Source of the DNA: an uncultured Bacteroidales bacterium
Lineage (GTDB): Bacteria; Bacteroidota; Bacteroidia; Bacteroidales; UBA932
Direction of reading: 5' to 3'
Length of the DNA stretch: 64,000 nucleotides
Assembly (NCBI GenBank): GCA_947168065.1
Contig: CAMVKH010000005.1
Coordinates: forward strand, 62,001-126,000
Made by a program: the position numbers and the translations under genes
Shown here: in pieces, positions 7,184 to 57,347 of the stretch
Position numbering within the stretch: the first letter of the stretch is position 1
How the letters are laid out: every line of letters begins with the position of its first letter
Notes under the pieces: model-generated
What the model saw: the letters and a program-made list of their open reading frames with translations, nothing else
The model's database searches: none
What the model was told of the DNA's origin: nothing

Positions 7184-10100
7184 TTATACCTCGAAGAACC
7201 GGAAGGAGTCAAGGACCTCGAATATCATATCCACATAGGAACTCGAGGTTTCATCCCAACGGAAGCCGAGCCTGTGCAACACGTTCATCGTGTAGGTGTT
7301 ATCCGCCTGGTTCTCCACCATCGGCGTCTGTCCTTCCGCCTGGTTGTAGGCGATGATGCTGGACAGGATCCGGGCCTTTTCGGGATCGGCGCCCGCCTTC
7401 TCCATCCGGCTTGCAAACGCATCCACTTCCAGATGGTCCAACGGACTGCCGTCATCTTTGTGCAGGCGGGACAACACGTCGTCCATCGGCAACAGGTGAT
7501 TGTTGGAGACGTGGAAGACGCAGTTGGCCGCCGGAGTGCCCGCGAGCAGCACCACGGCGCGGGCTGTCTCATCGATGGGAGAGAACTCCATCCGGCTCAC
7601 CATCAGCGGGTAAGGGACGGCGCCCAGCATGCGGAACGCCTTCATTCGCCCCATCGAGGCATTGGAGTTGAAATTAGCCTGGAATTCGCCGTCCGCGGCA
7701 CGCGGAGACAGGTTTCCTACACGGACGATCTTCGCATTCAGCCGGCCTTCCGCAACCTTTTCCAGGATACAGCGTTCGGCCAGGAACTTGGACACGACAT
7801 ACTGGTTATCCGTATTCTGTCCAAAGAACAGCATCTGTTCGTCCATGATTGTCGGGACAAGGCCTTCGGCCATGCCGCCGACGCTCTCGGTGGAAACCTG
7901 CATCAGCCGGGCACCGGAAGCCAGACAGAAGTCCACCAGGTTCTGCACCCCGTAATAATTTACCTGGAGAATATCGTCCCCACGGGAGAAGTGCTTGACA
8001 TTGGCCGCACAGTTCACGACCATGTCGAACGGGGTCCCTGAAGCAAGGATCGAGTCGAAGACTTCCTTGCTCGTGATGTCGCCCTGGATCAGGCGGATGC
8101 GTCCGCCCACCAGTTGACGGTAATTCTTTTCGAAATAATAAACGAGCATCTCCTTCAGACGCTGCTCAGCGGTGACGGAGCCCTTGCCCCGGAGGAGACA
8201 CCAGATGACCGTATCTTCACCCGTCTGCTCAATCAGCTCCCGCAGAACATGGATGCCCAGAAAGCCCGTGGCGCCCGTCAGCAGGATGTTCTTGCCCAGT
8301 TGCTGGGGCTCCCCTACCAGGAAGGCGTCGAGGGTATTGCCCGCCAGCAGGGCGTCAATGGCAGAATAATCGTATGCCGAGACATCATCTTTCTTGTCAT
8401 CGAGCTTCGGGCTGCCGCCTTCCAGAGAGGCGGCCAGGGCACGGGCTGTCGGAAAAACGAACACGTCGGCGTAGGAGAACTTCAGCCCGCGTTTTTCTGC
8501 GCTGACCAGCACGCTCGTAACCATGAGCGAAGTACCGCCCAGGTCGAAGAAACTGTCTGTAGCACCCACACGGTTCATTCCCAGCACTTCGGCGAAAATT
8601 TCGCACAAGGCGGTCTCAATTTTTCCCTCGGGCGGCACGTAATCTCCGTCGGAAGTCATCTCGGGAGCCGGGAGGGCCTTGCGGTCCACCTTCTGATTCA
8701 CATTCAACGGGATCTTGTCGAGCTGCGTAAAAGCAGCCGGGACCATGTAGGGCGGTTTCCGCTGCAGGATAAAATCCGACAGCGCCTTCTTGTCCAGTTC
8801 CCCGTCGCAAACGACGTAGGCCGCGATGAACTTGCCGCCGGAAGGGTTGTCGAAAGGCTGGACCGTAACATCGGTAACGCCCGGGAACTCACGGATCACG
8901 GCTTCCACTTCCTTGGTCTCGACACGGAAACCGCGGATCTTCACCTGGCCGTCGTTGCGGCCCACAAACTCGATGTTGCCGTCCATACGGTAACGGACGA
9001 TATCGCCGGTCCGATACACGCGGTCATAGGGGTACTCCCCGGCGAACGGATTGGAGATAAATGTTTCAGCGGTCTTTTCCGGCCGGTTGAGGTATCCACG
9101 GCTGACCTGGGGGCCGGAAACCCAAAGCTCGCCCACTGCGCCGGCGGGAAGCCGCCGGCCCTGGCCGTCCACCACATAGAGCCGGAAGTTGGACAACGGA
9201 TGGCCGATGGGAATGTTGGGCTCCTTCTTCTTCACTTCGAAGATCGTGGAGAAAATGGTGCACTCTGTCGGGCCATACCCGTTATGGAAGTGATAGGAAG
9301 GCGGATCCATCGAAATGAGTTTCTCGCCGCCCACCGACAGATGTTTCAAGGAAGGGTTCCCGGGGAAGTTCTTGGCGAACATGACGCCCACCTGGGTAGT
9401 CATGAAGCTGTGGGTGACTTTGTTGTCGGTGATGAGACTGCTCAGCAGGGACATGTCGTGCCGGGTCTCCTCCGGGACGATGCACACGCTGGCACCGGTC
9501 GTGAGGGCGGGATACATGTCCATCATGCATGCATCGAAGCCATAGCTGGCGTACGCCGCGACGCGGCTCTTTTCCGTAAGCTTATAGTAGTCCCGGTACC
9601 AGGCACAGAAATACACGAGATTGCGGTGCTCCAGCATACATCCCTTCGGAACGCCGGTGGAACCCGACGTGTAGAGGAGAATGAACAGGTCCTCCGGTGC
9701 CGGTCCCGTGGGAACGGATCCTGCCGGCAACGAAGCGATGTCGGCCGTATCCAGGACAGGACCCTGGTAGGAAGTGATGCGCTGCCGGTATTGCGCGTCG
9801 ACGATGAGCAGGCTCGCCGCAGCGTCCTCGACCATGAAGTTCAGGCGCTCTTCCGGATAGGAAGGGTCCAGGGGCTGATAGGCGCAGCCCGCTTTCAAGG
9901 CGCCGAGGGATGCGACGGCCATCAGTTCATTGCGGCCGATCAGGATGGAGACGACCTGTTCGCGCCCGAGTCCCAGCGAGGCGATGTACGATGCAATCCT
10001 GTCGGAAATATCATCCAGCTCCTTATACGTCAACGTCTTCGACTCAAAGAGAACAGCCGGTGCATCCGGGTGGGCGGCCGCCTGTGCGCGGAAGAGGGAA

Positions 10101-13100
10101 ACGATGGTCTGCTTGTCGTCCACAGGAAGCGTATAGGCATTGAAGCCGTCCAGCATCTTTTCCTGGGATTTTCCCACCAGCGCAAGTTTCCCGAGCGGCC
10201 CGTCGGAAAGCATTCCTTGCAGCAACTGCGTCAGCGTATCGGCAAAACTCTGCATCAGCTCCGGGCTGTAAAGGGTCTCGTCATACTGAACCAGAATATG
10301 CTCAGCCGCCTCGCCGCCGTTGACGAAGATACTTACGGGGAACATCGGGGTCTGGGTCGCCAGATCCTCGTAGGAGAGTTCCTTCCCGCCTATCCGGTAG
10401 GATTCCAGCAGACCGACCTGGTAGGCCAACATCACCTGCGGCTGGAAACCGTAGTCGGAAGACACTTTGGCGAAAGGATAGTATTCGTGCGACCGGGACT
10501 CGGCAAACACGCTGTCCGTTTCCCGCAAATAGTCCTCCACTTTGTCAACCCCGGTATCAGCCGACAGGGCGAGCGTATTGACGAACATACCGATGGTATC
10601 GGATACCCGCAGGTCGGAGCGGCCGTTGCTCACGGTGCACATATAGACGTTCCGGTTGCCGGAGAAGACGCCGACGGCCAGGTAGGCCGCACCGAGGAAA
10701 TAACTGGCCGGAGAAATGCCCAGCTGCTGGCAGCGGGCGGCGATGGCCGCATCCACAGGCAATTCCAGGGATGCCACCACACCGGCTTCCTCCCCTTTCT
10801 CCCGGTCGGGAAGAATGGCGCTGGCGCCTTCGCAGCCCGCCATCCGTTCCTGGAAGAAGGATGCCGCAGCGGTGAATTCCTCACCGCCTTCCGAAGCCTT
10901 CTGGCCGGCGGCATAGTCAAAGTAGGTGAAACTCTCCGGAACGGGGTCCGTGCCGTCCATCGTCGCGCAGAACTCCGTCATGAAGATGTCCATCGAACGG
11001 CCGTCGAAAACCAGGTGATGGAAGTCCGTCAAGAGATACAGACCCTTCCCCGCCTTGACAACGGTGGCCCGGAACAGCGGTCCCTCCGACAGGTTGAACG
11101 GCTCCAGGAAATGGGATTTGAAATCCGGGAGGTTCTCCGCCGGGATGGTCGCCAGACTAACCTCGGGTTCCTGCTCACAAGGGACCAGCATCACCTTGCC
11201 GTCCCGCATCTCGAAGCGGGAATTCAGCACGGGGTGGCATTTCACCACCTTCAGGAAAGCGCTGCGGACAGCCTCGGGATCGAGGGAAGCCGGAAGGGTC
11301 CAGCAGAGCGGCAGGTTGTACACCGTCTCGCTGGGATTCTTCATGCACTCGAAGTAGAGACCTTCCTGCTGGAAAGTCAGGGACTGCGCCGACACCGCGC
11401 CCTGGGAAGCACCCGGCTGCTTCGGGGCCTGTCCGGAGAACATGACGGAAAGCACCTCGTTCTCAATGCCCTGGAGCGTCGCCGTCTTGACGAAGGATTT
11501 CATATCCACCATGATGCCGAAGCGCTTGTTCAATTCGACCGCGAGCCGGAGTGCCGCAAGGGAGGTAAGGCCCGAATAGATGAGCGGCTCCGTCAACGAG
11601 AAGCCGTCGATATGGGTCGTCTCACGGATCAGGTCAGCGAGTTTCTGCTCCAACAGGTTGAAGGGCGCATCTTCCGCCGGCTTGTCCTTCTTGCGCGCCT
11701 CGGGCTTCGGCAGAGCTTTCCGATCCACTTTCTGGTTCACATTCAAGGGAATGGAATCGATCTGCATGGTCACCGACGGCACCATGTAAGGCGGTTTCCG
11801 GTCCAGGATAAAAGCATTCAGGGCGTCGATGTCCACCGGGGCGTCGCCGACGACATAGGCCGCCAGGAACTTGCCGCCTCCCTCACCCTCTTCGTCGAAA
11901 GCCTGGACGGTGACATCCGTGATGCCGGGGAACTCCCGGATAACACTTTCCACCTCCTTGAGTTCGATGCGGAAACCCCGGATCTTCACCTGCATGTCCT
12001 TGCGGCCGATGAACTCGATGTCGCCGTCGGCCCGGTAGCGGACGACATCGCCGGTCCGGTACATATGCCTGTAGGCAGGGTCGTCGGTGAAAGGGTTGTC
12101 AATGAACACCTCGGCGGTCTTGTCGGGCCGTCCCAGGTAGCCCACGCCCACCTGCCAGCCGGAAATCACCAGTTCTCCGGCGGCGCCAACCGGCAGTCGC
12201 CCTCCGCTCTTGCCCAGGATATAGGCATTGACGCCCGGCATGGGACGGCCGATGGGGATATCCGGTTCCTGCACGGTCACATGCTTGCTGACCACATAGG
12301 CCGTGGTCTCCGTGGGACCGTAGCAGTTGAATAACGCAAATTTGGGAGGTGCCAGACTGACCATTTTCTCACCGCCGGTGTACATGGCCTTCAAGGACTT
12401 GTTTTTCGGGAAATTGATGGCGAACTGCGTGGCGACCTGTGTCGTCATCAGGGTGTGGGTGATGCCGTTTTCCTCGAAGAAATCATTCAGGGCAAGCAGA
12501 TCCAGACGAATCTCCTCGGGAATGATATAGAGGGCGGCCCCTGCCATGAGGGCCGTTGCATAATCGCTCATGAAGGCATCGAAACCGAAGCTGGCGTACA
12601 CGGCCATACGGGAAGCTTCCGTGATGCCGAGATTGGCCTGGTTGTTCCGCCCGTAGACAGAGATGTTCCGGTGGATCAGCTGGACGCCCTTGGGAACGCC
12701 GGTCGTTCCACTGGTATAGAGCAGAATGAAGCGGTCGTCCGGCTTCGGTGCCGGAACCTTTGCCTTTCCTTCGGGAAGGGAGGCGATGTCCCGGGTCAGG
12801 AAGACTTTCCCTTCATAACCGCCGACCAGCTCTTCCAGCCCCGGATCCGCAATGAGCAGGGAGGCACCGGCGTCCTGCACCATGAAAGACAGGCGTTCGG
12901 CCGGATAGGAAGGGTCCAGCGGCTCGTACGCACAAGCGGCCTTGATGGCGGCCAGGGGTGCAACGGCCATATACTGGTTCCGGTTCAGGATGATGGCGAC
13001 CACACCGCCGGGTTTTACGACAGAAGCGATATAAGCGGCCAGGTTGTCAGTCAGCCGGTCGAGCTGGGCATAGGTGAGCGTCGTGTCCTGATACACCACG

Positions 13101-13876
13101 GCCGGATGGCCCGGGAAGCTTTTCACGTTTTCCCGGAAAGCGTCCAGGAAGGTCAGGTTGATGTCGCCGGAGAAGGGTTCCGGGTTGAAGGAATCCGTTT
13201 CCTTCAGCTGCGCGTCTGTTATAAAAGCGAGCTCTCCCACCGTTTCCGCCTTCCCCATCGACAGGAGACAAGCGGAGAAACTGTCCACAAACTGCCGGAG
13301 TATCTGTTCAGAGTACTGATCGGCCCGATAGCGGCATTCCATCTGGAAAGTGCCGTTCTTGCCAGCCGTCATGCGGAACGCCAGCGCATCGTCGCCGATG
13401 GCAGCTTCCGGATCATCCGGCCCGTCGAAAAAGCTTGAAACGCCCGGTTCCATCTCGCGGACGCAATCCGCATAGGAATAGCCTTTTCCGCGGAGAACGA
13501 GTTCCTGCTGTTGCTGCCGTCTGGCCAGCAGTTCCTTCAAAGGCATCTCCGGCGTCCATTCCACCAGCACCGGCCACTGGCCGCCGCCGGTCGGGAAAAA
13601 GGCCTTCGTATCTGCGCCCCATACCGAAACGGTGACACCGAATGCGCTGGTCAGCAGCACATCGGCCGGACAACCGAAACGTTTCTGGAGGGCCTCCAGC
13701 TCTTTCGGCCCGGACAGAAGAGGAAAGGCCACTTTTTTCATGGCGGGTTTCCCTCCCCCACGTATATCGGGAATCAGCCGCGTCTCCAATCCGGCACAGG
13801 CAGAAAACTGTTCGACATACGGGGAAGGAGTCTCTTTCTTGGCGGCCTTTTCAGGCGCATCACTCTGCTTTTTCAT
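7184..13876 (-). CDS. NRPS1: bimodular peptide synthetase with terminal reductase and truncated first C domain
   Basis: A 2230-residue nonribosomal peptide synthetase. Order: C-terminal lobe of a condensation domain only (about 60-235), A1 (about 240-740; LLYTSGTTGVPKG near 385), T1 (GLTSL, Ser near 771), complete C2 (HHLVFDG near 953), A2 (LLYTSGSTGVPKG near 1399), T2 (LGGTSL near 1780), thioester reductase (TGATGFLG near 1866; YVVSK near 2026). Both A domains keep the A8 and A10 motifs (NVNQKVDRKALP). Hand-aligned specificity residues are DASLYGCAYK for A1 and DAMFSGGIFK for A2; I cannot assign amino acids. Reductive release should give a dipeptide aldehyde. The missing lobe is physically absent: only 96 bp separate the ATG from the ABC-F stop. 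No 4'-phosphopantetheinyl transferase is nearby. It is paralogous to NRPS2. Confidence 0.95.
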   Translation of the reverse strand: MKKQSDAPEKAAKKETPSPYVEQFSACAGLETRLIPDIRGGGKPAMKKVAFPLLSGPKELEALQKRFGCPADVLLTSAFGVTVSVWGADTKAFFPTGGGQWPVLVEWTPEMPLKELLARRQQQQELVLRGKGYSYADCVREMEPGVSSFFDGPDDPEAAIGDDALAFRMTAGKNGTFQMECRYRADQYSEQILRQFVDSFSACLLSMGKAETVGELAFITDAQLKETDSFNPEPFSGDINLTFLDAFRENVKSFPGHPAVVYQDTTLTYAQLDRLTDNLAAYIASVVKPGGVVAIILNRNQYMAVAPLAAIKAACAYEPLDPSYPAERLSFMVQDAGASLLIADPGLEELVGGYEGKVFLTRDIASLPEGKAKVPAPKPDDRFILLYTSGTTGVPKGVQLIHRNISVYGRNNQANLGITEASRMAVYASFGFDAFMSDYATALMAGAALYIIPEEIRLDLLALNDFFEENGITHTLMTTQVATQFAINFPKNKSLKAMYTGGEKMVSLAPPKFALFNCYGPTETTAYVVSKHVTVQEPDIPIGRPMPGVNAYILGKSGGRLPVGAAGELVISGWQVGVGYLGRPDKTAEVFIDNPFTDDPAYRHMYRTGDVVRYRADGDIEFIGRKDMQVKIRGFRIELKEVESVIREFPGITDVTVQAFDEEGEGGGKFLAAYVVGDAPVDIDALNAFILDRKPPYMVPSVTMQIDSIPLNVNQKVDRKALPKPEARKKDKPAEDAPFNLLEQKLADLIRETTHIDGFSLTEPLIYSGLTSLAALRLAVELNKRFGIMVDMKSFVKTATLQGIENEVLSVMFSGQAPKQPGASQGAVSAQSLTFQQEGLYFECMKNPSETVYNLPLCWTLPASLDPEAVRSAFLKVVKCHPVLNSRFEMRDGKVMLVPCEQEPEVSLATIPAENLPDFKSHFLEPFNLSEGPLFRATVVKAGKGLYLLTDFHHLVFDGRSMDIFMTEFCATMDGTDPVPESFTYFDYAAGQKASEGGEEFTAAASFFQERMAGCEGASAILPDREKGEEAGVVASLELPVDAAIAARCQQLGISPASYFLGAAYLAVGVFSGNRNVYMCTVSNGRSDLRVSDTIGMFVNTLALSADTGVDKVEDYLRETDSVFAESRSHEYYPFAKVSSDYGFQPQVMLAYQVGLLESYRIGGKELSYEDLATQTPMFPVSIFVNGGEAAEHILVQYDETLYSPELMQSFADTLTQLLQGMLSDGPLGKLALVGKSQEKMLDGFNAYTLPVDDKQTIVSLFRAQAAAHPDAPAVLFESKTLTYKELDDISDRIASYIASLGLGREQVVSILIGRNELMAVASLGALKAGCAYQPLDPSYPEERLNFMVEDAAASLLIVDAQYRQRITSYQGPVLDTADIASLPAGSVPTGPAPEDLFILLYTSGSTGVPKGCMLEHRNLVYFCAWYRDYYKLTEKSRVAAYASYGFDACMMDMYPALTTGASVCIVPEETRHDMSLLSSLITDNKVTHSFMTTQVGVMFAKNFPGNPSLKHLSVGGEKLISMDPPSYHFHNGYGPTECTIFSTIFEVKKKEPNIPIGHPLSNFRLYVVDGQGRRLPAGAVGELWVSGPQVSRGYLNRPEKTAETFISNPFAGEYPYDRVYRTGDIVRYRMDGNIEFVGRNDGQVKIRGFRVETKEVEAVIREFPGVTDVTVQPFDNPSGGKFIAAYVVCDGELDKKALSDFILQRKPPYMVPAAFTQLDKIPLNVNQKVDRKALPAPEMTSDGDYVPPEGKIETALCEIFAEVLGMNRVGATDSFFDLGGTSLMVTSVLVSAEKRGLKFSYADVFVFPTARALAASLEGGSPKLDDKKDDVSAYDYSAIDALLAGNTLDAFLVGEPQQLGKNILLTGATGFLGIHVLRELIEQTGEDTVIWCLLRGKGSVTAEQRLKEMLVYYFEKNYRQLVGGRIRLIQGDITSKEVFDSILASGTPFDMVVNCAANVKHFSRGDDILQVNYYGVQNLVDFCLASGARLMQVSTESVGGMAEGLVPTIMDEQMLFFGQNTDNQYVVSKFLAERCILEKVAEGRLNAKIVRVGNLSPRAADGEFQANFNSNASMGRMKAFRMLGAVPYPLMVSRMEFSPIDETARAVVLLAGTPAANCVFHVSNNHLLPMDDVLSRLHKDDGSPLDHLEVDAFASRMEKAGADPEKARILSSIIAYNQAEGQTPMVENQADNTYTMNVLHRLGFRWDETSSSYVDMIFEVLDSFRFFEV

Positions 13877-13898: not shown

Positions 13899-13906
13899 CA
13901 AATTTA
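13899..13906 (-). promoter_or_regulatory. Candidate NRPS1 -7 box (TAAATTTG)
   Basis: Exact TAnnTTTG match on the minus strand, 22 nt before the NRPS1 ATG. It overlaps one arm of the small inverted repeat TTTACG-N7-CGTAAA (13903-13921). Confidence 0.45.
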
Positions 13907-17179: not shown

Positions 17180-17187
17180 GTCGGCGG

Positions 17188-17607
17188 CTAGGCTTTCTTG
17201 ATGATGAAGGTCACGACGCCCCAGATGACGAAGTCATTGTCGGGGCCGACCGGGATGGGCCTGAACTTCGTGTTGCGTTCGTTGCAGGGCAGCAGCACGA
17301 CGCCGTCACTGCCGATGGACACGCGCTTGACCGTGAATTCCCCGTCGATGAAGCAGACCGCCTTGCAGTCGTTGTACGGATCCACGGCCCGGTCGACGAT
17401 CAGGATGTCGCCTTCGTCCATGTCGGCATCAACCATCGACACGCCGTCCACCTGAAAGAAAAACGTGGAAGCCGTGTGCCGCACCAGCAGTTTGACCAGG
17501 TCGAGCTTTTCGCGCAGATCCTCGGCCGGCGACGGGAATCCCGCCTTGACGGCGCCGACAAGGATGCTCTCGAACGATTCGGAATCGGTGATCGGATGCG
17601 GTTTCAC
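17188..17607 (-). CDS. umuD: UmuD-like self-cleaving mutagenesis protein
   Basis: A 139-residue S24-family protein. RecA-stimulated self-cleavage converts UmuD to UmuD', which forms PolV with UmuC. The predicted cleavage site is Ala22-Gly23 in KAGFPSPAED. The catalytic dyad is Ser57 (DGVSMVDA) and Lys94 (FTVKRV). There is no N-terminal DNA-binding domain, which separates it from LexA. It lies between umuC (8 bp downstream) and the lipoprotein/flavin-reductase gene (2 bp upstream), so it is probably expressed from that gene's promoter. Confidence 0.93.
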   Translation of the reverse strand: MKPHPITDSESFESILVGAVKAGFPSPAEDLREKLDLVKLLVRHTASTFFFQVDGVSMVDADMDEGDILIVDRAVDPYNDCKAVCFIDGEFTVKRVSIGSDGVVLLPCNERNTKFRPIPVGPDNDFVIWGVVTFIIKKA

Positions 17608-23023: not shown

Positions 23024-23054
23024 ATCTTACAGTTCAATGGAATGCACGTTCTCA

Positions 23055-47295: not shown

Positions 47296-48315
47296 ATGCG
47301 ACGTTTCCTGCTTCTGTTTTCGCTGTTCATCTCCCTGGCCGCCGCCGGCCAGAACAAAAAAGACAGCTTCTGGAGGGACCTCAACGATTTCCTCAACATG
47401 CGCGAAGACAAGAGCTATGCGAAACTCGATTCCAACTACATAGGCCGCTACCCCTATCACTGGGACGCCCGCCTGTTTTACAATTCCACGAGCCTGCGCA
47501 TCAGAGTCGACGGCCTCAACGACGTCGACCTGGCGACAGGCATGAACCACCGGGCAGGCATCGGTCTGAGTTACAGAGGCCTCGGCCTGAGCTACTCCCG
47601 CGCCATCGGCAAAAAGCTCAACTTCAACTTTTCCCTCGACAGTTACGGCAAGAATTTCGGCTTCGAATACGCGCTGCGCTTCACCACCGCCCTGAAAGGC
47701 ACGGTCAAGACGCCTTCGTCGGAAAGCCCGATGGAGAATCTGGTCCTGGGAGAATCACGCCTGAACCTGTTCTACAGTTTCAATTCTCGTTTCTCGTATG
47801 CGGCCGCCATGAAGCAGTCGAAGATCCAGCGCCGCAGCGCGGGCAGTTTCATCGCTTCCGCATCCTGGTCCGTGTGGGACGTCGTCTCCCTCGACGGCTT
47901 CGGCACCGTGACGGACCCGGAAGAGGTGGAATCCGTCTTTGACCTGCTGCAGTCCAACCTGCTGTACAACCGCGTATCCATCGGTGCAGGCTACGGATAC
48001 AACTGGGTACTCGGCAACCGGCACTGGCTGATACACGGTTCCCTGGTTCCGATGTGGACGGTATACGAAGCCACGACCGACTGGGAAAAGGGGAAACGGA
48101 GCCATCACCCCTATCCCTACGGATGGGTCACTTTCTGCGCCACGGGAAGGGCGGCTGTCTCCTATCAATGGGGCGAACGCTGGTCCCTGGGGCTGAACGG
48201 CGTGATCAACCAGATGGTTTCCCGCAACACCAAGAAGGGTAATGACTTTCATCGCTTCGGCGCGCAGGACTGGCAGATCCGCTTGTCGCTGAGTTTTCGT
48301 TTCGGTTCGCGCTAA
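47296..48315 (+). CDS. DUF4421 family outer-membrane beta-barrel-like protein
   Basis: A 339-residue exported protein with signal FSLFISLAAAGQ. The early segment YIGRYPYHWDARLFYNSTSL and repeated amphipathic beta strands with aromatic ends (LSLSFRFGSR at the C-terminus) fit DUF4421, predicted outer-membrane barrels of Bacteroidetes with no known function. The ATG at 47296 gives the signal peptide; earlier in-frame codons lie within the promoter. The stop overlaps the convergent STAS gene by 4 bp. Confidence 0.82.
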   Translation: MRRFLLLFSLFISLAAAGQNKKDSFWRDLNDFLNMREDKSYAKLDSNYIGRYPYHWDARLFYNSTSLRIRVDGLNDVDLATGMNHRAGIGLSYRGLGLSYSRAIGKKLNFNFSLDSYGKNFGFEYALRFTTALKGTVKTPSSESPMENLVLGESRLNLFYSFNSRFSYAAAMKQSKIQRRSAGSFIASASWSVWDVVSLDGFGTVTDPEEVESVFDLLQSNLLYNRVSIGAGYGYNWVLGNRHWLIHGSLVPMWTVYEATTDWEKGKRSHHPYPYGWVTFCATGRAAVSYQWGERWSLGLNGVINQMVSRNTKKGNDFHRFGAQDWQIRLSLSFRFGSR

Positions 48316-48614
48316 TCCCGGAAGAAACTGGCCGAAAGGCCTGTCATGTCAAATACCTCCTGGACCGTGTCGGTCACTTTCGTGATCGAGAAAGAGCCGC
48401 CATTCCTCATGACAGCCTGCTGGAAGGCCACGAGGATGCGCAGGGCCTTGGAAGACATATATTCCAGTTTCGAAAGGTCCATTTCGACCTTCGTATCCTT
48501 GCGCTCCATCAAAGGCTCGATGTCACGCTGGAACTGTGCGCTCGTGTCCGTATCCAGTTCACCCTGGACAGATACGACCACTACCCCGTTTTTTTCTTCG
48601 ATGATCGTTTTCAT
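48312..48614 (-). CDS. STAS-domain anti-sigma factor antagonist-like protein
   Basis: A 100-residue single STAS domain (SpoIIAA/RsbV-like): VVVSVQGELDTDTSAQF, then the phosphorylation-site segment KLEYMSSKALRILVAF with Ser 54/55 as the expected target. Such proteins bind an anti-sigma kinase when unphosphorylated. The start overlaps the PP2C phosphatase gene by 4 bp (ATGA), which makes a phosphatase/substrate pair nearly certain. No RsbW-type kinase or sigma factor is nearby. Confidence 0.92.
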   Translation of the reverse strand: MKTIIEEKNGVVVVSVQGELDTDTSAQFQRDIEPLMERKDTKVEMDLSKLEYMSSKALRILVAFQQAVMRNGGSFSITKVTDTVQEVFDMTGLSASFFRD

Positions 48615-49915
48615 ACTATTTTGATATAAATAATTGCAATATCGTCATTCTGCAAGGCGTTGCCGCGGAAGGCCGCCAGCGTATCCAGCAGGGATTGGCA
48701 GGCCTCCTCGCTGGAGATGGCGGGATCCAGCCCGTTCATCCATTCCTGCAGCCGCTTCTCCCCGAAGAAGGAGCGGTCCGCGCCGCGCGCCTCGGTCACG
48801 CCGTCCGTGTACAGCAGCAAACGGTCTCCATGATGCAACTGCACGGTCTGCGTATGATAGGGATAATCCCGGTCCAGGCCGGCGAGCAGCTGCGAATCCT
48901 GGTCAAGGAAGTCCCCGTTGACCATCGTCCGCGTATGCCCGGCATTGCAATATTCCATTTTCAGCGTTTCAGGATCGATGTGTCCCAGGAACAGCGTACA
49001 GAGCATCTCGTACTCCGAATTGTCACAGATCAGGTAGTTCAGTTCTTTCATCAGTTCACAGACAGGAACCTCGCCGCGAGTACGGGAATGAATAAAGGAA
49101 CTGATCGTAAACATCAGCAGCGCGGCTGTCGTGCCCTTGTCCGATACATCGCCGATTACGTACTGGAACTTGCCGTCCTGCATCCCGAAACGATAGATGT
49201 CGCCGCCCACCTCGCGGGCCGGCCGGAGCACGGCATGCGAATCGAAAAAGGAATTCTTGGGAAAGACCGTCGTCACCGCTTTCTGCTGCAGGTCGCGTGC
49301 CTCGTTGAGCTCGTTTTCAGCCAGGCGCTTGCGTTCGAGGACACGTTCCACGACAGGAATGATCCAGAACCACGAGACAGCCAGCAGCAGCAGGAAAAGG
49401 AGGACCAGCACCATGATAAAGTCTTTCGCGGTCTCCTCGCGATCACTGAAAATATAATCATAGTCGTAGACGCCGATCAATTCCAGGGGACGTGTCGGGA
49501 AGGGATGGATGATGATGAAGCAGCGGTCGCCCCAGACGTCCGCCAGCCAGCAGGTACCCGTTTTGTCAAGTTGCTTGACCTTCTTCATCTTCAAGGTACG
49601 CCCCGCGGCAAAAGAAGGCGCGATGACTTCACCTTCCTTGTCCCTCACCACATAGGAATACTCTCTCTCTTCGTGCTGCACGCTTGAAACCAGTTCCAGG
49701 TAGGCGAAGCAGTCCTTGTCCCCCTGGTCCATACGCAACTCGAGATAGGGAGCAATGGTCTTCAGATCGTCCTCCAGATCTTCGTAATTCAAGTTGTAAG
49801 ATTGTTCCAGCGAGACATGCAGCACCCACAGGGTAACACCCGTCGTCAACAAGCCATAAAGGGCCAGCAACAAGATAATCAGCAGGCGTGGAGAGTCAGA
49901 TATCCGCTTTTTCAT
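48611..49915 (-). CDS. Membrane-bound PP2C (SpoIIE/RsbU-type) phosphatase
   Basis: A 434-residue protein with two transmembrane segments (about 11-32 and 165-188) enclosing an extracytoplasmic sensor region, a short coiled linker (ERKRLAENELNEARDLQQ), then a SpoIIE-type phosphatase (about 215-434). Metal-site motifs are REVGGDIYRF, VIGDVSDKGTTAALLM, YCNAGHTR and LLYTDGVTEARG. It should dephosphorylate the STAS protein in response to an external signal. It is divergent from NRPS2 across a 160-bp gap. Confidence 0.92.
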   Translation of the reverse strand: MKKRISDSPRLLIILLLALYGLLTTGVTLWVLHVSLEQSYNLNYEDLEDDLKTIAPYLELRMDQGDKDCFAYLELVSSVQHEEREYSYVVRDKEGEVIAPSFAAGRTLKMKKVKQLDKTGTCWLADVWGDRCFIIIHPFPTRPLELIGVYDYDYIFSDREETAKDFIMVLVLLFLLLLAVSWFWIIPVVERVLERKRLAENELNEARDLQQKAVTTVFPKNSFFDSHAVLRPAREVGGDIYRFGMQDGKFQYVIGDVSDKGTTAALLMFTISSFIHSRTRGEVPVCELMKELNYLICDNSEYEMLCTLFLGHIDPETLKMEYCNAGHTRTMVNGDFLDQDSQLLAGLDRDYPYHTQTVQLHHGDRLLLYTDGVTEARGADRSFFGEKRLQEWMNGLDPAISSEEACQSLLDTLAAFRGNALQNDDIAIIYIKIV

Positions 49916-50013
49916 CTCCGAAATTTACGAATAAATCACAATTCGAGCAAATTTAATTGACTGGGATATACATCCGGTTGTTCTGAATCCGTTCCATACG
50001 TTCAAAAAAATAT

Positions 50014-50054
50014 GGGGAATCCCCGACAAACACAAGCCATTTTTTTTATATTTG
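50014..50054 (+). promoter_or_regulatory. NRPS2 promoter region: palindrome and -7 box
   Basis: The -7 box TATATTTG (50047-50054) lies 21 nt before the ATG at 50076. About 23 bp upstream of it is the palindromic GGGGAATCCCC (50014-50024), close to where a -33 element or an operator would lie. The rest of the gap 49916-50075 shows nothing else. Confidence 0.5.
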
Positions 50055-50075
50055 AAAGTTAAAAATACTGAGATT

Positions 50076-53000
50076 ATGAGTTACCCCCTATCCCAGTCTC
50101 AACTGAGCATCTTCCTGGCTTGCCAGGGACTGAATGAGAACGACGGCAACTATCAGCAGGCATCGCTGTACCGCCTTCCCGACAGCGTTGACATCAAACG
50201 GCTCGTCGCAGCCTTCGAAGCATTGATCAAGGCACATCCCTATGTCCTTTCCCGCATCGTCCTGGAGGAAGGAATGCCGCGGATAGAAGACCACTCGATC
50301 GACGAGTGGCACCCTCTCGTGAAGGAAATCACCTCCATCGACGAGGTTCGCCCGACTTTCTGCCGGACGATGAACCTCCTCAAGGATCCGCTGCTCCGCA
50401 TCGAGATCTACAAAACCAAAAAAGGAAATTATCTCTATTGTGATTTACACCATATCATTTTCGACGGTGCCTCCACCATCTTGCTGACAGACCACCTGAC
50501 ACGTGCGTATGCTGGGGAAGAACTGCCTCCGGAGCCCCTCAACGGCTTTGACATCGCCACCCGGGAAGAGGCGCAGCGACAGGGAGAAACCTACGAAGAA
50601 GCGAAAAAGTGGTATGCCGAGACCTTCGGGGAAGGCGCCCAGCTCTACTCGAACATCCGGCCCGATGTGTACGACGCCCAGCCGCAGCCCTATCGCGAAC
50701 TGCTCATCGACCTGCCGGTCAAGGGCTCTGTCGTCAAGGCGCTCCTGGCCAAATACCGCTGCGCCGACAGCGTGCTTTTCACAGCCGCCTTCGGCGTGAC
50801 TCTCGCCGCATGGAGCGCCGAGCCGAAAGCCGCCTTCAGCACCATCTGGAACGGCCGGAAAGGCCCTTCGATGAACGCCCTCACCATGAGCGTCCATACC
50901 ATGCCCGTCCTGGTGAACGCAGACCCTTCCCAGACGGTGCCCGGCCTGCTTGAAGAACTCCGCCAGCAGATCAGCGGATCCCGCAGCCGCGCCTTCTACT
51001 CTTTCGCCGACTGCGTCCGTGATTTCGACTTCAATCCTCCCATCAATTTCGGTTATCAGGGCAAATTCGCCGCCGCCACCGTGACCATCCGGCTGGAAGG
51101 AGTAGACATTCCCGCCGAAGACCTGCGTACCAACCCGCCGGGTCTCGGCCTTACGGTCGAACTTTTCGGACACGACGACGGCAGCCAGCTGCTCCGTTTC
51201 TGGCACCGGCCCGACCAATACTCCGAAAAGATCCTCCGCGAGTTCGCAGAAAGCTTCTCCGCCGTGCTCATCTCCATGGAGAAGGCCGAAACGCTGGCCG
51301 ACCTGCAATATGTTACGGCGAAGCAGCGGAAACAGCTGGACCTTTTCCAGCCGGCCGAGGCGGCCATCGATACGGGAAAGACGGTCCTGGACTACTTCAA
51401 GGAATGTGCGTCCAGGACGCCCGATAAGGTAGCGGTGGTCTACGGCGACAAACGGCTCACCTACGCGGAACTGGACCGGCTCTCCGACAACCTGGCCGCT
51501 GAAATCAACAAGACCGTGAAGCCCGGCGGCGTGGTGTCGATCATCCTGGGGCGCAATGAGCACATGGCCACCACGCCCGTCGCGGCCATCAAGGCCGGCT
51601 GCACCTACCAGCCCCTCGACCCCACCTATCCCTCCGAACGCCTGGGCTATATGGTGCAGGACGCGAAGGCGGGCCTGCTGATCGCCGATCCGGGCCTTGA
51701 ACAGCTCGTGGAAGGGTACAAGGGCCCCGTCCTCCTCACCGACAAGATAGCCGGACTGCCCAAAGGCAATGGCAAGGGTGCGCCCAAGGCGGACGACTGC
51801 ATCATTCTGCTCTATACCAGCGGCACCACAGGAAAGCCCAAGGGCTGCATGCTTTCCCACACAAACCTCCTGACCTTCTGCCTCCAGTCCAACAAGCAGT
51901 TTGCACTCGGGCCGGACTCCGCCATGACGGGCTACGCCAGTTTCGGCTTCGATGCCTTCATGGGCGATATGTGGCGGACCCTGTGCGCCGGCGCCACGCT
52001 TCACATCATTCCCGAAGAAATCCGGCTCGACCTGGTGGCCCTGAACGAATACTTCGAGAAGAACGGCGTCACCCACGCCTTCATGACCACCCAGGTGGCC
52101 ACCCAGTTCGCCCTCACGTTCCCGCGCTGCAAGGGTCTCAAAGTCCTGTCAACGGGCGGCGAGAAACTGGCCAGCATCACGCCCCCGGGCTTCAGGTTCT
52201 ACAACTGCTACGGCCCGACCGAATGCTGCTGCTACGTGGTGAGCAAGCTCGTTGAGAAAAAGGAAACCAACATCCCCATCGGACGCCCCTCGTCGGGCAT
52301 ACACGTCCATATCGCCACGAAGAACGGGCAGCTGCTGCCAGTCGGCGCCGCCGGCGAACTGCTGGTCGCCGGACGGCAGGTGGGCCTGGGCTACCTGGGC
52401 CTGCCTGACAAGACCGGCGAAGCTTTCATTCCCAACCCCTATGAGAAGGAGGCTGCCTACAGCCGTATCTACCGTACCGGCGACATCGTGCGCTGGCGCG
52501 AGGACGGCGACATCGAATTCATCGGCCGCAAGGATTCCCAGGTGAAGATCCGCGGCTTCCGCATCGAGCTCAAGGAAGTTGAAACCGTGATCCTGGCGTA
52601 TCCAGGCATCACCGACGTCACCGTGCAGGCCTTCGACGAAGAGGGCGGCGGCAAGTATCTGGCCGCCTACGTCGTGTCGGAACAGCCCGTCGACGTCGAA
52701 AAGCTGAACGCCTTCATCCAGGAGCAGAAACCGCCGTATATGGTGCCGGCCGTCACGATGCAGATCGACAAGATTCCGCTCAACGTCAACCAGAAGGTGG
52801 ACCGCAAGGCCCTGCCCAAGCCCCAGCCGCAACAGCAGGAGCACAAAGCTGTCGACGCGCCTTTCAACATCCTCGAACAGGAGATCGCCGACCTGATCCG
52901 CGACACGGTCAATATCGAGGGCTTCTCGCTCACCGAACCGCTGCTCTACTACGGCCTGAGTTCCCTCTCCGCCCTGCGTCTGGCCACGGAGCTCTACAAG

Positions 53001-56000
53001 AAATACGGCGTCCAGATGAACATGGACTCCTTCGTCAAGACCGCGTCGCTGCAGACCATCGAGAATGAGGTGATCAAAGCGCTGATCGCGGGCCGCGGTG
53101 CGGCCGCACAGAGCGCGATGCAGCAGGCCGACACGCCGCAGCCGCTGACCTTCCAGCAGACCGGCGTCTATTTCGACTGCATGAAGGCCCCGCAGGAGAC
53201 CATGTATAACATTCCCATGTTGTGGACCTTCCCCGGGGAAGTATCGGCCCAGGCCCTGAAGAAAGCCGTCGAAAAGGTGCTCGCCGCCCATCCTGCCCTG
53301 CAGTCTCACTTTGAGCAGAAAGACGGGCAGATCTGCCAGGTGCCTTCCGACGTGCCCATCCCGGTGAGCATCAACGAGACGGACATCCAGTCCCGTAAAG
53401 AGCATTTCATCCTTCCCTTCAACCTGGGCAAGGGCCCGCTGGGCAAGGTGGAAATCGTGCCCGGAAAGGACAAGACCTACATGCTGAGCGACTTCCACCA
53501 CCTGGTGTTCGACGGCCGTAGCTACGACATCTTCATCGAGGAAGTCTGTGCTGCGCTGGAAGGCAGGGAAATCGCCCCTGAAAACTACAACTATTTCCAG
53601 TATGCCGCCTGGCAGAAGGAATCCGAAGGCAGCGAGGCCTTTGCCCAGGCCCAGGACTTCTTTGCCCGGCAAATGGGCGGCCTGGAGAGTCCTTCGACCG
53701 TCATTCCCGACCTCGAACACGGCGACCATCCCGGCCGCGAAGTGTTCCTGAGAAAGTTTGTCGAGGCCGACATCCATCCGCTCTGCAAAAAGCTGGGCAT
53801 CTCGCCCGCCAGCTTCTACCTGGGCGCCGCCTACCTCACCCTCAGCGCCTACAACGCCAATAAGCAAGTATACATCTGCACCGTCAGCAACGGTCGCGGC
53901 AACCTGAAGACGGCCGACAGTTTCGGCATGTTCGTCAATACCCTGGCCCTCGCCGGGGACTGTTCCGTCGAACGCACCGGCGACTTCCTGAAACAGTGTG
54001 ACCAGGACTTCCAGGCCACCCTGCAGCACCAGGACTACCCCTTCGCCAGGATTGCCGCCGATTTCGGCTTCCAGCCGCAGGTGATGCTGGCCTATCAGGT
54101 GGGCGTCCTGGCCGACTACCGCGTGAACGGACAGCCCGTCACGGGCGAGAACCTGGACGCCGGCGCGCCCAAGTTCCCGCTGAGCATCTATATCGACGGC
54201 AGCGAGGGCAAGGAAGCCATCGTGCTGGGCTACGACAACAGCAAATACAGCGAAGCCCTCATGCAGGCCTTCGCCGACGCCATGGAATGCGTGGTAAGGG
54301 GGCTGCTGCAGCATGAGAAGCTCTCCGAGGTGCCGTTCGTGGACGGCGAACGCCTGAAAGAGCTGGATGGCTTCAACCATTTCAGCCAGAAGGTGGATGC
54401 CACCCAGACCATCGTCAGTCTCTTCCGCGAGCAGGCCCGCCGGACGCCCGACGCGCCCGCCGTCTGCTACGAAGACTATCGCTGCACCTATGCGGAGGCC
54501 GACGCCCTCACCGACCGCATCGCCGCCGCCATCGCCGCCAGGGGCCTGAAGAACGAAGACGTGGTCTCGGTACTCATCGGCCGAAGCCAGTGGATGCCGC
54601 TGGCTTCGCTGGGCATCCTCAAGGCCGGCTGCGCCTACCAGCCGCTGGATCCATCCTACCCGGAAGAGCGCCTCAACTTCATGGTGGCCGACGCATCGGC
54701 CCGCCTGGTCATCGCAGAGAAGGAACTCCTGCCCGTGCTGAAAGACTACAAGGGGCCCGTGCTCACCACCGATGAACTGGAGTCCCTGCCCGAAGGCCCC
54801 GTTCCGGAGGGTCCCAAGCCGGAAAACCTCTTTATCCTGCTGTACACCTCCGGCTCCACGGGCGTGCCCAAGGGCGTGATGCTCGAACACCACAATCTGG
54901 TGAATTTCTGTGCCTGGTACCGGAAGTACTTTGACCTGAACGAGCACAGCCGGGCGTCGGCCTACGCCAGCTATGGCTTCGACTGCTGCCAGATGGACAT
55001 GTATCCGACCCTCACCACGGGCGCCTGCCTGTACATCATCCCCGAGGAGACCCGCCACGACATGAGCCTGCTGAACAGCTTCCTCGTCAACAACGGCATC
55101 ACCCACAGCTTCATGACCACCCAGGTGGGCGTGATGTACGCCAGGAACTACCCGGATAACCCGACCCTGCAGCATCTCACCGTGGCCGGCGAAAAGCTGG
55201 TTTCCATGGACCCGCCTTCCTACGGCTTCCACAACGGCTACGGCCCTACGGAATGCACCATCCTCTGCACCATTTTCGACGTGAAGAAACGGGAAGCCAA
55301 CATCCCCATCGGCCATGCACTGGACAATACTTATATGTATGTAGTGGACAAAGACTTGCGCCGGGTACCCGTGGGTGCGGACGGCGAGCTGCTCATTACC
55401 GGCGACGCCTGCGTGGGCCGCGGCTACCTGAACCGCCCCGAGAAAACGGCCGAGGTCTTCATTGAGAATCCGTTCCGGAAAGGCATGCGGGCCTATCGCA
55501 GCGGTGACATCGTCCGCTGGCGCACCGACGGCAACATCGAGTATGTGGGCCGCAACGACGGCCAGGTGAAAATCCGCGGCTTCCGCGTCGAGACTAAGGA
55601 GGTAGAGGCTGTCATCCGGGAATTCCCCGGCGTGAAGGACGTGACCGTCCAGGCCTTCGACGCATCCTCCGGCGGCAAGTTCATCGCCGCCTACGTGGTA
55701 AGCGAGGGTAATCTCGACACGAAGGCCCTGAGCGCCTTCATCCTCGAGCGCAAGCCGCCCTACATGGTGCCCGCTTCCATCAACGCCCTCGACAGCATCC
55801 CGCTCAACGTCAACCAGAAAGTGGACCGCAAGGCGTTGCCCGCCCCCGTGCTTTCCGCTTCCGACGACTACGTGGAGCCTGCCACCGACACGGAGCGAAC
55901 GCTCTGCGAGGTGTTTGCACACGTGCTCGATGTGGAGAAGGTGGGTGCGCTCGACAACTTCTTCGATATGGGCGGTTCCTCGCTCATGGTGACCAATGTC

Positions 56001-57347
56001 ATGGTGGAAGCCGAGAAGCGCGGCCTCAAGTTCAGCTACGCCGAAGTCTTCATCTTCCCCACCGCCCGTGCCCTGGCCGCTCACATCACGGGAGAAAAGG
56101 TCCCCGATGCAGCGGGAGCTGAAGCCAGCGCTCCGGCGGAGGACGTGGCGCACTACGATTACACGGCCATCGACCAGCTGCTGGCCGCCAATACGCTGGA
56201 ATCCCTCGCAACCGGCAAGATGCAGAAGCTGGGCAGGAACATCCTGCTGACGGGCGCCACCGGCTTCCTTGGGATTCACCTGTTGCGGACACTGATTGAC
56301 TGTACGCCCAAGAGCACGGTGATCTGGTGCCTGCTGCGCGGCAAGGGAGCAAACCTGACGGCCGAGCAGCGCCTCGCCGGGATGCTCATCTATTATTTTG
56401 AGCAGAAATACCGCAAGCTTATCGGCACGCGCATCCGGGTGATCGAGGGCGACATCACCAGGCCCGCCTCGTTCGAAGCCCTCCAGGCCACCGGCACGAC
56501 CTTCGACCTGGTCATCAACTGCGCCGCCAACGTGAAGCACTTCTCCAAGGGCAACGACATCGAGGAGATCAACTACGTCGGCGTGAAGAATCTCGTGGAT
56601 TTCTGCGAGAAGGCCGGGGCCCGGTTCATCCAGGTCTCCACCGAGAGCATCTGCGGCATGACCGCGGACGGCCAGCCCAAGTTGTTCACCGAACAGCAGC
56701 TCTGGATCGGCCAGAACACCGACAACCAGTATATCCACTCCAAGTTCCTGGCCGAGCGCCATGTTCTGGAGCACGTGGCGGCAGGTACGCTGCGGGCCAA
56801 GATCATGCGTGCCGGCAACCTGTCACCCCGTGCGGAAGACGGTGAGTTCCAGGCGAATTTCAATGCCAACACCACGATGGGACGCCTCAAGGCATACCGG
56901 ATGCTGGGAGCCTTCCCGTATCCGTTGCTCGACATGAAGATGGAATTCTCCCCCATCGACGAGACGGCACACGCCATCGCGCTGCTGGCGACTACGCCTG
57001 ACGCGAACTGCGTGTTCCACATATCGAACGACCACCTGCTGCCGATGGACGACATTCTCTCGCGCATCCACCAGGACGACGGTTCACCGATTGCATACGT
57101 GGAACTTCCCGACTTCGCCGCCCGCATGGAAGCCGCCAAGGCGGATCCGGAGAAAGCCAAGGTGCTTTCGAGCATCATCGCCTACGCCAGCGCTCCCGAC
57201 GGACCCCATACGATGCCCAACATAGCATCCACCTCCTACACGATGCAGGTGCTTCACCGGCTCGGCTTCCGCTGGAATGCCACGGCCAGCGACTATGTGG
57301 ACATGATCTTCGAGATGCTGGCTTCACTCAGATATTTTGACATTTGA
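50076..57347 (+). CDS. NRPS2: complete C-A-T-C-A-T-reductase peptide synthetase
   Basis: A 2423-residue nonribosomal peptide synthetase. Order: C1 (about 1-430; HHIIFDG near 125), A1 (about 445-930; LLYTSGTTGKPKG near 578), T1 (GLSSL, Ser near 962), C2 (HHLVFDG near 1140), A2 (LLYTSGSTGVPKG near 1588), T2 (MGGSSL near 1967), thioester reductase (TGATGFLG near 2058; YIHSK near 2220). All core motifs are intact. Hand-aligned specificity residues are DAGFSGCCYK (A1) and DCMFTAGILK (A2), unassigned. No upstream module exists, so C1 may act as a starter domain that loads an acyl group. Reductive release predicts an N-acyl dipeptide aldehyde. A TTG at 50052 lies in the -7 box, so the ATG at 50076 is the start. 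Paralogous to NRPS1. Confidence 0.96.
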   Translation: MSYPLSQSQLSIFLACQGLNENDGNYQQASLYRLPDSVDIKRLVAAFEALIKAHPYVLSRIVLEEGMPRIEDHSIDEWHPLVKEITSIDEVRPTFCRTMNLLKDPLLRIEIYKTKKGNYLYCDLHHIIFDGASTILLTDHLTRAYAGEELPPEPLNGFDIATREEAQRQGETYEEAKKWYAETFGEGAQLYSNIRPDVYDAQPQPYRELLIDLPVKGSVVKALLAKYRCADSVLFTAAFGVTLAAWSAEPKAAFSTIWNGRKGPSMNALTMSVHTMPVLVNADPSQTVPGLLEELRQQISGSRSRAFYSFADCVRDFDFNPPINFGYQGKFAAATVTIRLEGVDIPAEDLRTNPPGLGLTVELFGHDDGSQLLRFWHRPDQYSEKILREFAESFSAVLISMEKAETLADLQYVTAKQRKQLDLFQPAEAAIDTGKTVLDYFKECASRTPDKVAVVYGDKRLTYAELDRLSDNLAAEINKTVKPGGVVSIILGRNEHMATTPVAAIKAGCTYQPLDPTYPSERLGYMVQDAKAGLLIADPGLEQLVEGYKGPVLLTDKIAGLPKGNGKGAPKADDCIILLYTSGTTGKPKGCMLSHTNLLTFCLQSNKQFALGPDSAMTGYASFGFDAFMGDMWRTLCAGATLHIIPEEIRLDLVALNEYFEKNGVTHAFMTTQVATQFALTFPRCKGLKVLSTGGEKLASITPPGFRFYNCYGPTECCCYVVSKLVEKKETNIPIGRPSSGIHVHIATKNGQLLPVGAAGELLVAGRQVGLGYLGLPDKTGEAFIPNPYEKEAAYSRIYRTGDIVRWREDGDIEFIGRKDSQVKIRGFRIELKEVETVILAYPGITDVTVQAFDEEGGGKYLAAYVVSEQPVDVEKLNAFIQEQKPPYMVPAVTMQIDKIPLNVNQKVDRKALPKPQPQQQEHKAVDAPFNILEQEIADLIRDTVNIEGFSLTEPLLYYGLSSLSALRLATELYKKYGVQMNMDSFVKTASLQTIENEVIKALIAGRGAAAQSAMQQADTPQPLTFQQTGVYFDCMKAPQETMYNIPMLWTFPGEVSAQALKKAVEKVLAAHPALQSHFEQKDGQICQVPSDVPIPVSINETDIQSRKEHFILPFNLGKGPLGKVEIVPGKDKTYMLSDFHHLVFDGRSYDIFIEEVCAALEGREIAPENYNYFQYAAWQKESEGSEAFAQAQDFFARQMGGLESPSTVIPDLEHGDHPGREVFLRKFVEADIHPLCKKLGISPASFYLGAAYLTLSAYNANKQVYICTVSNGRGNLKTADSFGMFVNTLALAGDCSVERTGDFLKQCDQDFQATLQHQDYPFARIAADFGFQPQVMLAYQVGVLADYRVNGQPVTGENLDAGAPKFPLSIYIDGSEGKEAIVLGYDNSKYSEALMQAFADAMECVVRGLLQHEKLSEVPFVDGERLKELDGFNHFSQKVDATQTIVSLFREQARRTPDAPAVCYEDYRCTYAEADALTDRIAAAIAARGLKNEDVVSVLIGRSQWMPLASLGILKAGCAYQPLDPSYPEERLNFMVADASARLVIAEKELLPVLKDYKGPVLTTDELESLPEGPVPEGPKPENLFILLYTSGSTGVPKGVMLEHHNLVNFCAWYRKYFDLNEHSRASAYASYGFDCCQMDMYPTLTTGACLYIIPEETRHDMSLLNSFLVNNGITHSFMTTQVGVMYARNYPDNPTLQHLTVAGEKLVSMDPPSYGFHNGYGPTECTILCTIFDVKKREANIPIGHALDNTYMYVVDKDLRRVPVGADGELLITGDACVGRGYLNRPEKTAEVFIENPFRKGMRAYRSGDIVRWRTDGNIEYVGRNDGQVKIRGFRVETKEVEAVIREFPGVKDVTVQAFDASSGGKFIAAYVVSEGNLDTKALSAFILERKPPYMVPASINALDSIPLNVNQKVDRKALPAPVLSASDDYVEPATDTERTLCEVFAHVLDVEKVGALDNFFDMGGSSLMVTNVMVEAEKRGLKFSYAEVFIFPTARALAAHITGEKVPDAAGAEASAPAEDVAHYDYTAIDQLLAANTLESLATGKMQKLGRNILLTGATGFLGIHLLRTLIDCTPKSTVIWCLLRGKGANLTAEQRLAGMLIYYFEQKYRKLIGTRIRVIEGDITRPASFEALQATGTTFDLVINCAANVKHFSKGNDIEEINYVGVKNLVDFCEKAGARFIQVSTESICGMTADGQPKLFTEQQLWIGQNTDNQYIHSKFLAERHVLEHVAAGTLRAKIMRAGNLSPRAEDGEFQANFNANTTMGRLKAYRMLGAFPYPLLDMKMEFSPIDETAHAIALLATTPDANCVFHISNDHLLPMDDILSRIHQDDGSPIAYVELPDFAARMEAAKADPEKAKVLSSIIAYASAPDGPHTMPNIASTSYTMQVLHRLGFRWNATASDYVDMIFEMLASLRYFDI

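Follow-up and report, generated by a model that had tools for sequence, protein, structure and literature searches.

How did a single Bacteroidales genome come to hold two giant reductase-ended nonribosomal peptide synthetases (NRPSs), and do both of them still work? The question is raised by a stretch of 64,000 nucleotides (positions 62,001 to 126,000 of contig CAMVKH010000005.1, assembly GCA_947168065.1) from an uncultured Bacteroidales bacterium; this whole stretch is called the window below, and all coordinates refer to it. It encodes the synthetases N1 (7184..13876, minus strand) and N2 (50076..57347, plus strand), built from condensation (C), adenylation (A), thiolation (T) and reductase (R) domains. 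On balance we think it probable that both are working reductase-ended bimodular NRPSs with distinct dipeptide aldehydes as products, N1 being an old homologue and N2 part of a regulated mobile cassette.

Two NRPS-reductase giants had been proposed from the nucleotide sequence before any search was made (the sequence-only reading), and both open reading frames (ORFs), of 2230 and 2431 aa, are confirmed by their Pfam domains: N1 contains two AMP-binding, two PP-binding and one Condensation domain, N2 two of each, and both end in a C-terminal NAD_binding_4 reductase. The order (C)-A-T-C-A-T-R assigned to both proteins holds for the core A-T-C-A-T-R, which has intact motifs in N1 and N2, and fails for the first C domain, which is incomplete in N1. 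The first residue of N1 corresponds to N2 residue ~175, past the lobe that carries the HHxxxDG motif, and the first HHxxxDG is missing. BLASTP aligned the two proteins with 57.5% identity over 2273 columns. Domain by domain, the identities were 35% (C-lobe of C1), 65% (A1), 61% (T1), 47% (C2), 70% (A2), 68% (T2) and 65% (R), far above chance and, as had been claimed, beyond the resemblance of unrelated synthetases.

By ORF, Pfam and alignment, N1 reads [C1 C-lobe only]-A1-T1-C2-A2-T2-R. Its residues 1-236 (13169..13876, minus strand, as are all N1 features) are a remnant C-lobe that aligns, minus two segments, with the corresponding lobe in 12 other C1 domains, and that AlphaFold2 modelled as compact, with a mean predicted local distance difference test score of 79 and a predicted template-modelling score of 0.80. 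A frameshifted full-length gene was considered and rejected, as tblastn with the C1 domain of N2 found no N-lobe remnant adjoining N1 in the window; direct or inverted repeats were not found at the edges of N1. The remnant is followed by A1 (11687..13165, pocket DASLYGCAYK), C2 (10142..11389, HHLVFDG intact), A2 (8657..10117, pocket DAMFSGGIFK) and the terminal thioester reductase (7187..8329, TGATGFLG and YxxxK intact), assigned by Pfam together with alignment or pocket reading.

Having lost the N-lobe with its HHxxxDG and carrying two more gaps in the C-lobe, N1 might be a dead or dying duplicate that is drifting, and N1-type genes were found in just two of 40 genomes of the genus, namely this genome (G000) and G020. 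We nevertheless rate this explanation as very improbable. The G020 copy has an identical layout, neither genome has an interruption in the reading frame, and the motifs of the A, T, C2 and R domains are intact. Between the two copies, the ratio of non-synonymous to synonymous substitution rates (dN/dS) is 0.078 when the remnant is excluded (1993 codons) and 0.18 for the remnant itself (198 codons, 15 non-synonymous changes), which indicates that N1 is maintained by purifying selection and not simply decaying, the remnant being more loosely maintained. The gene also has its own -7-like promoter box upstream of the ATG (TAAATTTG, 13899..13906, minus strand), and relatives without any C1 keep full-length A-T-C-A-T-R genes. 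The first C domain of two other synthetases, L110 and L108, likewise aligns only from about mid-domain (C 162/163 onwards); N-terminal half C domains may thus be recurrent among synthetases.

N2 (ORF, Pfam, alignment) has the full layout C1-A1-T1-C2-A2-T2-R. Its longest ORF extends from a TTG at 50052 to 57347 (plus strand). The true start is probably the ATG at 50076, because the TTG sits within TATATTTG (50047..50054), a promoter-like box of the form TAnnTTTG, which we take to be the -7 consensus of Bacteroidota. A scan found 28 such boxes in the window, several of them just 5' of starts, as compared to 10.9 expected; this excess is as expected for Bacteroidota promoters. C1 (50079..51362, HHIIFDG) is complete by Pfam, alignment and PDB match. 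A complete N-terminal C domain with HHxxxDG, a trait of N-acylating NRPSs, is thus present in N2 and absent from N1. The best PDB match of this domain is a C domain from PvdL (construct residues 128-519, 53 bits), a weak preference over the next, TycC (49 bits); C2 prefers TycC and LgrA. A1 (pocket DAGFSGCCYK) and the terminal thioester reductase occupy 51369..52826 and 56199..57344, respectively.

The relationship between the two proteins was addressed in trees of the A-T-C-A-T-R core. Of 82 cores, 79 were placed in a large tree (L044, L121 and L122 were left out) and 28 in a 28-row tree. In the latter, N1 and N2 lie inside a common 17-row clade (support 100/100), within which N1 and its G020 copy are the sister of 11 N2 orthologues of the genus (13-row clade, 100/99); the next branch outside is an A-T-C-A-T-R clade without any C1. 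Grouping N1 with the N2 of its own species group was rejected by the approximately unbiased (AU) test (p=7e-5; here and in the segment trees below, AU p-values are somewhat favourable, since tested clades and segments were chosen after viewing trees or identities). Uniting N1 and the C1-less clade by one C1-loss event was rejected as well (AU p=0.004), so that more than one loss of C1 is probable. Because N2 is a mosaic, as described below, its unswapped segments carry most weight for the placement of N1: the clade of N2 orthologues excludes N1 in A1-T1 as well as in A2sub-T2-R (100/99 each). The single-domain A1 tree also places N1 outside the genus N2 clade.

The sequence-only reading had suggested that monophyly of the two proteins in domain trees would support a duplication. 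Fast-diverged sister copies from a duplication within the lineage would share a clade and a good deal of identity, as N1 and N2 do, but the AU result and both unswapped segments contradict this origin, and none of the 11 relatives fetched has a match to N1 (E<=1e-4) at the site where it lies, between trmO on one side and an ABC-F gene on the other in both G000 and G020. The trees thus argue against a recent duplication, and we consider an origin of this kind improbable. N1 would rather be an old paralogue that a single lineage retained, or a homologue transferred from a close relative and set between trmO and the ABC-F gene; both fit the trees, and transfer needs fewer losses. An umuDC-like pair (15914-17607, minus strand) varies in position relative to trmO/ABC-F among genus members; its spot is a rearranged site that also received N1.

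The metagenome-assembled genome (MAG) that encodes N1 and N2 comprises 2.02 Mb in 17 contigs and is 76.9% complete; the only three C-domain matches in it are all within these two genes. Among named genomes, those nearest to it are MAGs of uncultured Bacteroidales or Bacteroidia, many of which carry the names of rumen isolates, and the host bacterium is probably gut-dwelling. In an even sample of 393 genomes of the order, with the genus represented by this MAG alone and at most four candidates scored in most genomes, the R domain was found (E<=1e-50) in eight, and two copies only in this MAG. Within the genus it was found (E<=1e-20) in 17 of 40 genomes, three of which, G000, G020 and G037, have two matches.

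N1 has lost half a domain; N2 has been altered by a swap. Compared with five orthologues, N2 shows 76% identity over A1-T1 and 77% from the A2 end through R, close to the values among the orthologues themselves (78% and 79%); over C2 the figure drops to 56% (75% among orthologues), and for the core of A2 it is 70% (83%). With L045 from MAG Tb.RUG.181, N2 has an identity of 80% over C2 (a partial protein, L045 covers only the later part of this domain), 78% over the A2 core and 65% downstream. Segment trees were built from 22 cores plus the two partial proteins L038 and L045 (22-24 rows). For C2-A2core, one clade of N2 orthologues was rejected (p=6e-6) and the N2 lineage grouped with L045 (100/100), a grouping that was itself rejected downstream (p=1e-9). 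Judged by these identities and trees, N2 is a mosaic in which C2 and the A2 core (residues ~1050-1820, edges approximate; 53199..55511, plus strand) were replaced from an L045-like synthetase, the A2 pocket changing with the swap. That pocket, DCMFTAGILK, was read in N2, two close copies of it and the G037 copy, and a similar one, DCMFIAGILK, in the Prevotellaceae enzyme L058. N1 and the ten other N2 orthologues that were read all have DAMFSGGIFK, the most frequent A2 pocket of the set. Pockets were read at positions that we assume to be those of the GrsA PheA domain. The A1 pockets of some relatives are similar to DAMFLGCTYK, a Leu code given in PMC12283262. In view of the half C1 of N1, the different A1 pockets and the swapped A2 pocket, the cap, the first residue and the second residue of the two products are all predicted to differ.

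Through their R domains, N1 and N2 would release dipeptide aldehydes. In N2, the complete C1 domain may acylate the first residue, yielding an N-acyl-dipeptide aldehyde. With only half of C1, N1 is by its layout unable to add an acyl group to its first residue by standard C-domain chemistry; it may start from a free amino acid and form a dipeptide aldehyde that can cyclise to a dihydropyrazinone or pyrazinone. The model for such a route is the aureusimine synthetase AusA, an A-T-C-A-T-R enzyme that starts from a free amino acid and gives pyrazinones. Since NRPS R domains are generally capable of two- or four-electron reductions, both enzymes could instead make products other than aldehydes, for example alcohols through two reductions. 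We think this unlikely, given that, of the gut enzymes of this type that have been characterised, the closest yield aldehydes, according to passages of PMC8518294 and PMC12327764.

What sets N2 apart from N1 genetically is its neighbourhood. Divergent from N2, profile searches identified a SpoIIE-type phosphatase (48611..49915, minus strand) with N-terminal membrane segments recognised by eye and its own -7-like box (TAAATTTG, 49948..49955, minus strand), followed by a single-domain STAS protein of the anti-sigma-antagonist type with an SS loop (48312..48614, minus strand). Beside STAS lies the gene of a DUF4421 protein that looks like an outer-membrane barrel by eye (47296..48315, plus strand). 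Directly 3' of N2 lies a gene for a thioredoxin-like protein (57365..57874, plus strand), found at the N2 locus in the genus members L025, L027, L035, L036 and L038 and not in others. Between G000 and G036, synonymous divergence (dS) is 0.06-0.15 for DUF4421, STAS, SpoIIE, N2 and the thioredoxin-like gene, 0.31-0.48 for the threonyl-tRNA synthetase, M23 and GH2 genes just outside the block, and it rises to 0.61-1.19 across seven genes from the trmO/ABC-F region; a 762-aa ORF with dN > dS, probably an antisense frame, was left out. Because dS of the five genes is far below that of the flanks and of the trmO/ABC-F genes, DUF4421-STAS-SpoIIE-N2-thioredoxin looks to have been exchanged between species as one block, which would mark the likely limits of the cluster.

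The SpoIIE-STAS pair is conserved beside N2 orthologues, and the MAG has one SpoIIE and one STAS match, both at N2. A SpoIIE phosphatase together with a STAS protein bearing a phosphorylatable serine loop, as in systems of the RsbU/V/W type, is thus found at this locus; on an outside signal the two proteins might gate synthesis or export of the NRPS product. SpoIIE lies within 5.5 kb of the synthetase at 14 of the 18 genus loci, the others being the N1 locus of G020 and three whose contig ends within the NRPS, on its 5' side. In G037 (L039, G037:C33:1-19000), two NRPS-plus-switch units adjoin back to back: an N2-type NRPS that runs into the contig end and is accompanied by SpoIIE and STAS, and a second NRPS, of the order A-T-C-A-T-R, which has a SpoIIE-HATPase and its own STAS. 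Each synthetase there therefore has its own switch.

The linkage recurs across phyla. We inspected 97 loci, 18 from the genus and 79 from named genomes; the latter derive from the best 80 R-domain matches of a capped scan, a non-random set with many members related to each other, and L044, which shares a contig with L036, was excluded from all flank counts. Profile searches, which replaced a first flank clustering that mixed SpoIIE with other proteins, located SpoIIE within 5.5 kb of the NRPS at 63 loci, STAS at 65, both at 61 and either at 67. By group, SpoIIE and STAS were present at 14 and 13 of 18 loci in the genus, 34 and 35 of 53 in other Bacteroidota, 10 and 10 of 18 in Bacillota, 5 and 6 of 6 in Methanobacteriota, neither at the single locus from Planctomycetota, and 0 and 1 of one unnamed locus. 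As an internal control, the frequency of SpoIIE per kb of flank fell from 0.14-0.15 in the first 3 kb beside the NRPS to 0.02 between 3 and 4.5 kb and to <=0.01 farther out. One locus (L059:3-13231) carries tandem reductase-ended NRPSs, A-T-C-A-T-R and then C-A-T-C-A-T-R, about 45 bases apart.

A MATE exporter is encoded within 3 kb of the NRPS at 36 of the 97 loci, and at 21 it bears a C-terminal RsbW-like ATPase domain (for example L107:11457-13211), as counted by MATE and HATPase profiles trained on the same loci; 18 of these 21 genes are <=10 bases from the NRPS frame. The fusions occur in four Bacteroidota (one of them weak, in the genus), 11 Bacillota and six Methanobacteriota. Pfam, applied to 12 of them (L107, L119 and ten more), recovered HATPase_c_2 in 11, over the curated cut-off in eight; among the methanogens, L119 had no match and the other Methanobrevibacter fusions L116 and L122 fell below the cut-off, while L109 (Methanofilum) exceeded it. 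The L084 protein, scored as negative with the profiles, had no Pfam match to the domain either. The domain assignment rests on Pfam because a phmmer search of PDB with one MATE-fused domain reached RsbW only at E=0.22. Whether the fused domains act as kinases is uncertain, since by eye the ExxxN box is kept in 16 of 21 and the glycine-rich lid is variable.

How might such a module act? SpoIIE and STAS are classical parts of sigma switches, such systems being listed in part of PMC8256260, and at N2 they could control transcription through a sigma or other factor as Bacillus RsbU/V do, making the NRPS link one of ordinary pathway-specific regulation. The divergent -7-like boxes at N2 and SpoIIE agree with this, as do the sigma-70 factors (Sigma70_r2), potential targets found in every one of the 16 bacterial genomes searched, and we would grant it somewhat less than an even chance. 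The same module, however, stands beside the methanogen NRPSs, and Sigma70_r2 was matched in none of the four Methanobacteriota genomes searched, which is what one would expect of archaea; as far as these searches go, the methanogen module must therefore have a non-sigma output, with exporter and NRPS as the obvious candidates. The fusion of the RsbW-like domain to the exporter also speaks against a purely transcriptional role. A sigma-free switch common to bacteria and archaea, in which SpoIIE, STAS and the RsbW-like ATPase act directly on the NRPS or the exporter and an extracellular signal gates output post-translationally, is a more tentative proposal, in which N2 would have a stripped-down form and N1 would have been freed from it.

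Several observations weigh against the reading of N1 as an old homologue and N2 as part of a regulated mobile cassette. The A2 and C2 trees group N1 with the unswapped N2 orthologues and leave N2 outside, and the R tree leaves N1 unplaced among N2 orthologues and the C1-less clade. The remnant C-lobe of N1 is still constrained and may have some role, and the acylating function proposed for the C1 of N2 derives from architecture plus the weak preference for PvdL (53 bits) over TycC (49 bits). Block exchange was deduced from one species pair and 15 genes. At 30 of the 97 loci, some of them cut by contig ends, neither SpoIIE nor STAS is within 5.5 kb, and the SpoIIE-STAS module was not found near N1, either in the window or in G020. 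The switch at N2 is incomplete locally: a cognate HATPase_c_2 kinase, present beside many relatives, is absent from the locus, the only hit in the 77%-complete MAG being below the cut-off.

The sequence-only reading had also seen no dedicated transporter or 4'-phosphopantetheinyl transferase beside either synthetase. As an account of dedicated neighbours this is incomplete for N2, given the conserved and block-exchanged SpoIIE-STAS pair; it stands insofar as a 4'-phosphopantetheinyl transferase gene is lacking locally. The latter is hardly an oddity: the MAG has one match, a 230-aa ORF of Sfp size away from N1 and N2, and only 24 of the 97 related loci have such a gene within 5.5 kb. Between N1 and N2 lies a Peptidase C10 gene with a Spi propeptide inhibitor (26702-28495, minus strand), followed by one for a BACON protein; C10 peptidases are cysteine proteases, and enzymes of this class are possible targets of peptide aldehydes. 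Two long antisense ORFs overlap at 23628-25916 (minus strand) and 22944-26132 (plus strand, 1062 aa), and the latter is probably the real gene because the former has no Pfam match and odd substitution ratios.

Inhibition of cysteine proteases, serine proteases and the proteasome by peptide aldehydes is described in passages of PMC8518294, and it is of consequence for host and microbes alike which gut organisms produce such compounds and at what time. If the sigma-free switch were real, one mechanism would toggle them in Bacteroidota, Clostridia and methanogens, and the SpoIIE/STAS/RsbW toolkit would gain a target outside transcription. The pair N1/N2 amounts to a natural experiment, in which one enzyme family was altered by half-domain loss in one member and by a C-A unit swap in the other. 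The enzymes themselves belong to a known kind; the new elements are the conserved SpoIIE/STAS switch cassette and the MATE-HATPase fusion.

Among known systems, AusA provides the best NCBIfam model for both proteins, with scores (951.7 bits for N1, 1026.6 for N2) below the curated cut-off of 2500 of NF047350; N1 effectively shares the AusA layout, and differs by the half C domain in front. Gut NRPSs of the dipeptide-aldehyde type, with which the sequence-only reading had associated N1 and N2 and which the intact A-T-C-A-T-R cores would indeed suggest, make N-acyl dipeptide aldehydes, partly isolated as pyrazinones, according to sections of PMC8518294 and PMC12327764. A gut Clostridium cluster expressed in E. 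coli gave N-octanoyl-Met-Phe-H (PMC8518294, in part), and ruminopeptin is a known product of the type (PMC12327764, in part). The layout of N2 fits N-acylated products like those of BGC0001686 (gut Clostridium) and of the ruminopeptin NRPS (Ruminococcus bromii), synthetases from Clostridia that are likened to N1 and N2 by description only. A survey of the rumen (PMC8241843) reports that NRPS clusters abound in its Firmicutes, Bacteroidota and methanogens and that clusters from different phyla resemble each other; its main text contains none of the words reductase, aldehyde and SpoIIE. Among open-licence PMC papers, judged mostly by title and abstract, none was found on a general NRPS-SpoIIE/STAS linkage or a MATE-HATPase fusion. 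The nearest precedent is mru0068 of Methanobrevibacter ruminantium, a bimodular C-A-T-C-A-T NRPS accompanied by genes for two serine phosphatases and an anti-sigma factor antagonist and by a MatE gene (Leahy 2010, PMC2812497), whose terminal domain is called a thioesterase in the text and a thioester reductase in a figure legend; the report concerns one archaeal genome, and its passages on the cluster mention neither recurrence across phyla nor the fusion. With RsbU/RsbV/RsbW and the non-canonical partner switches SypA and BtrU/V/W, the N2 module has in common a SpoIIE phosphatase and a STAS protein with a conserved serine loop; it differs from them in that its locus has no kinase, in that it is linked to an NRPS, and in that its relatives are often accompanied by a MATE exporter.

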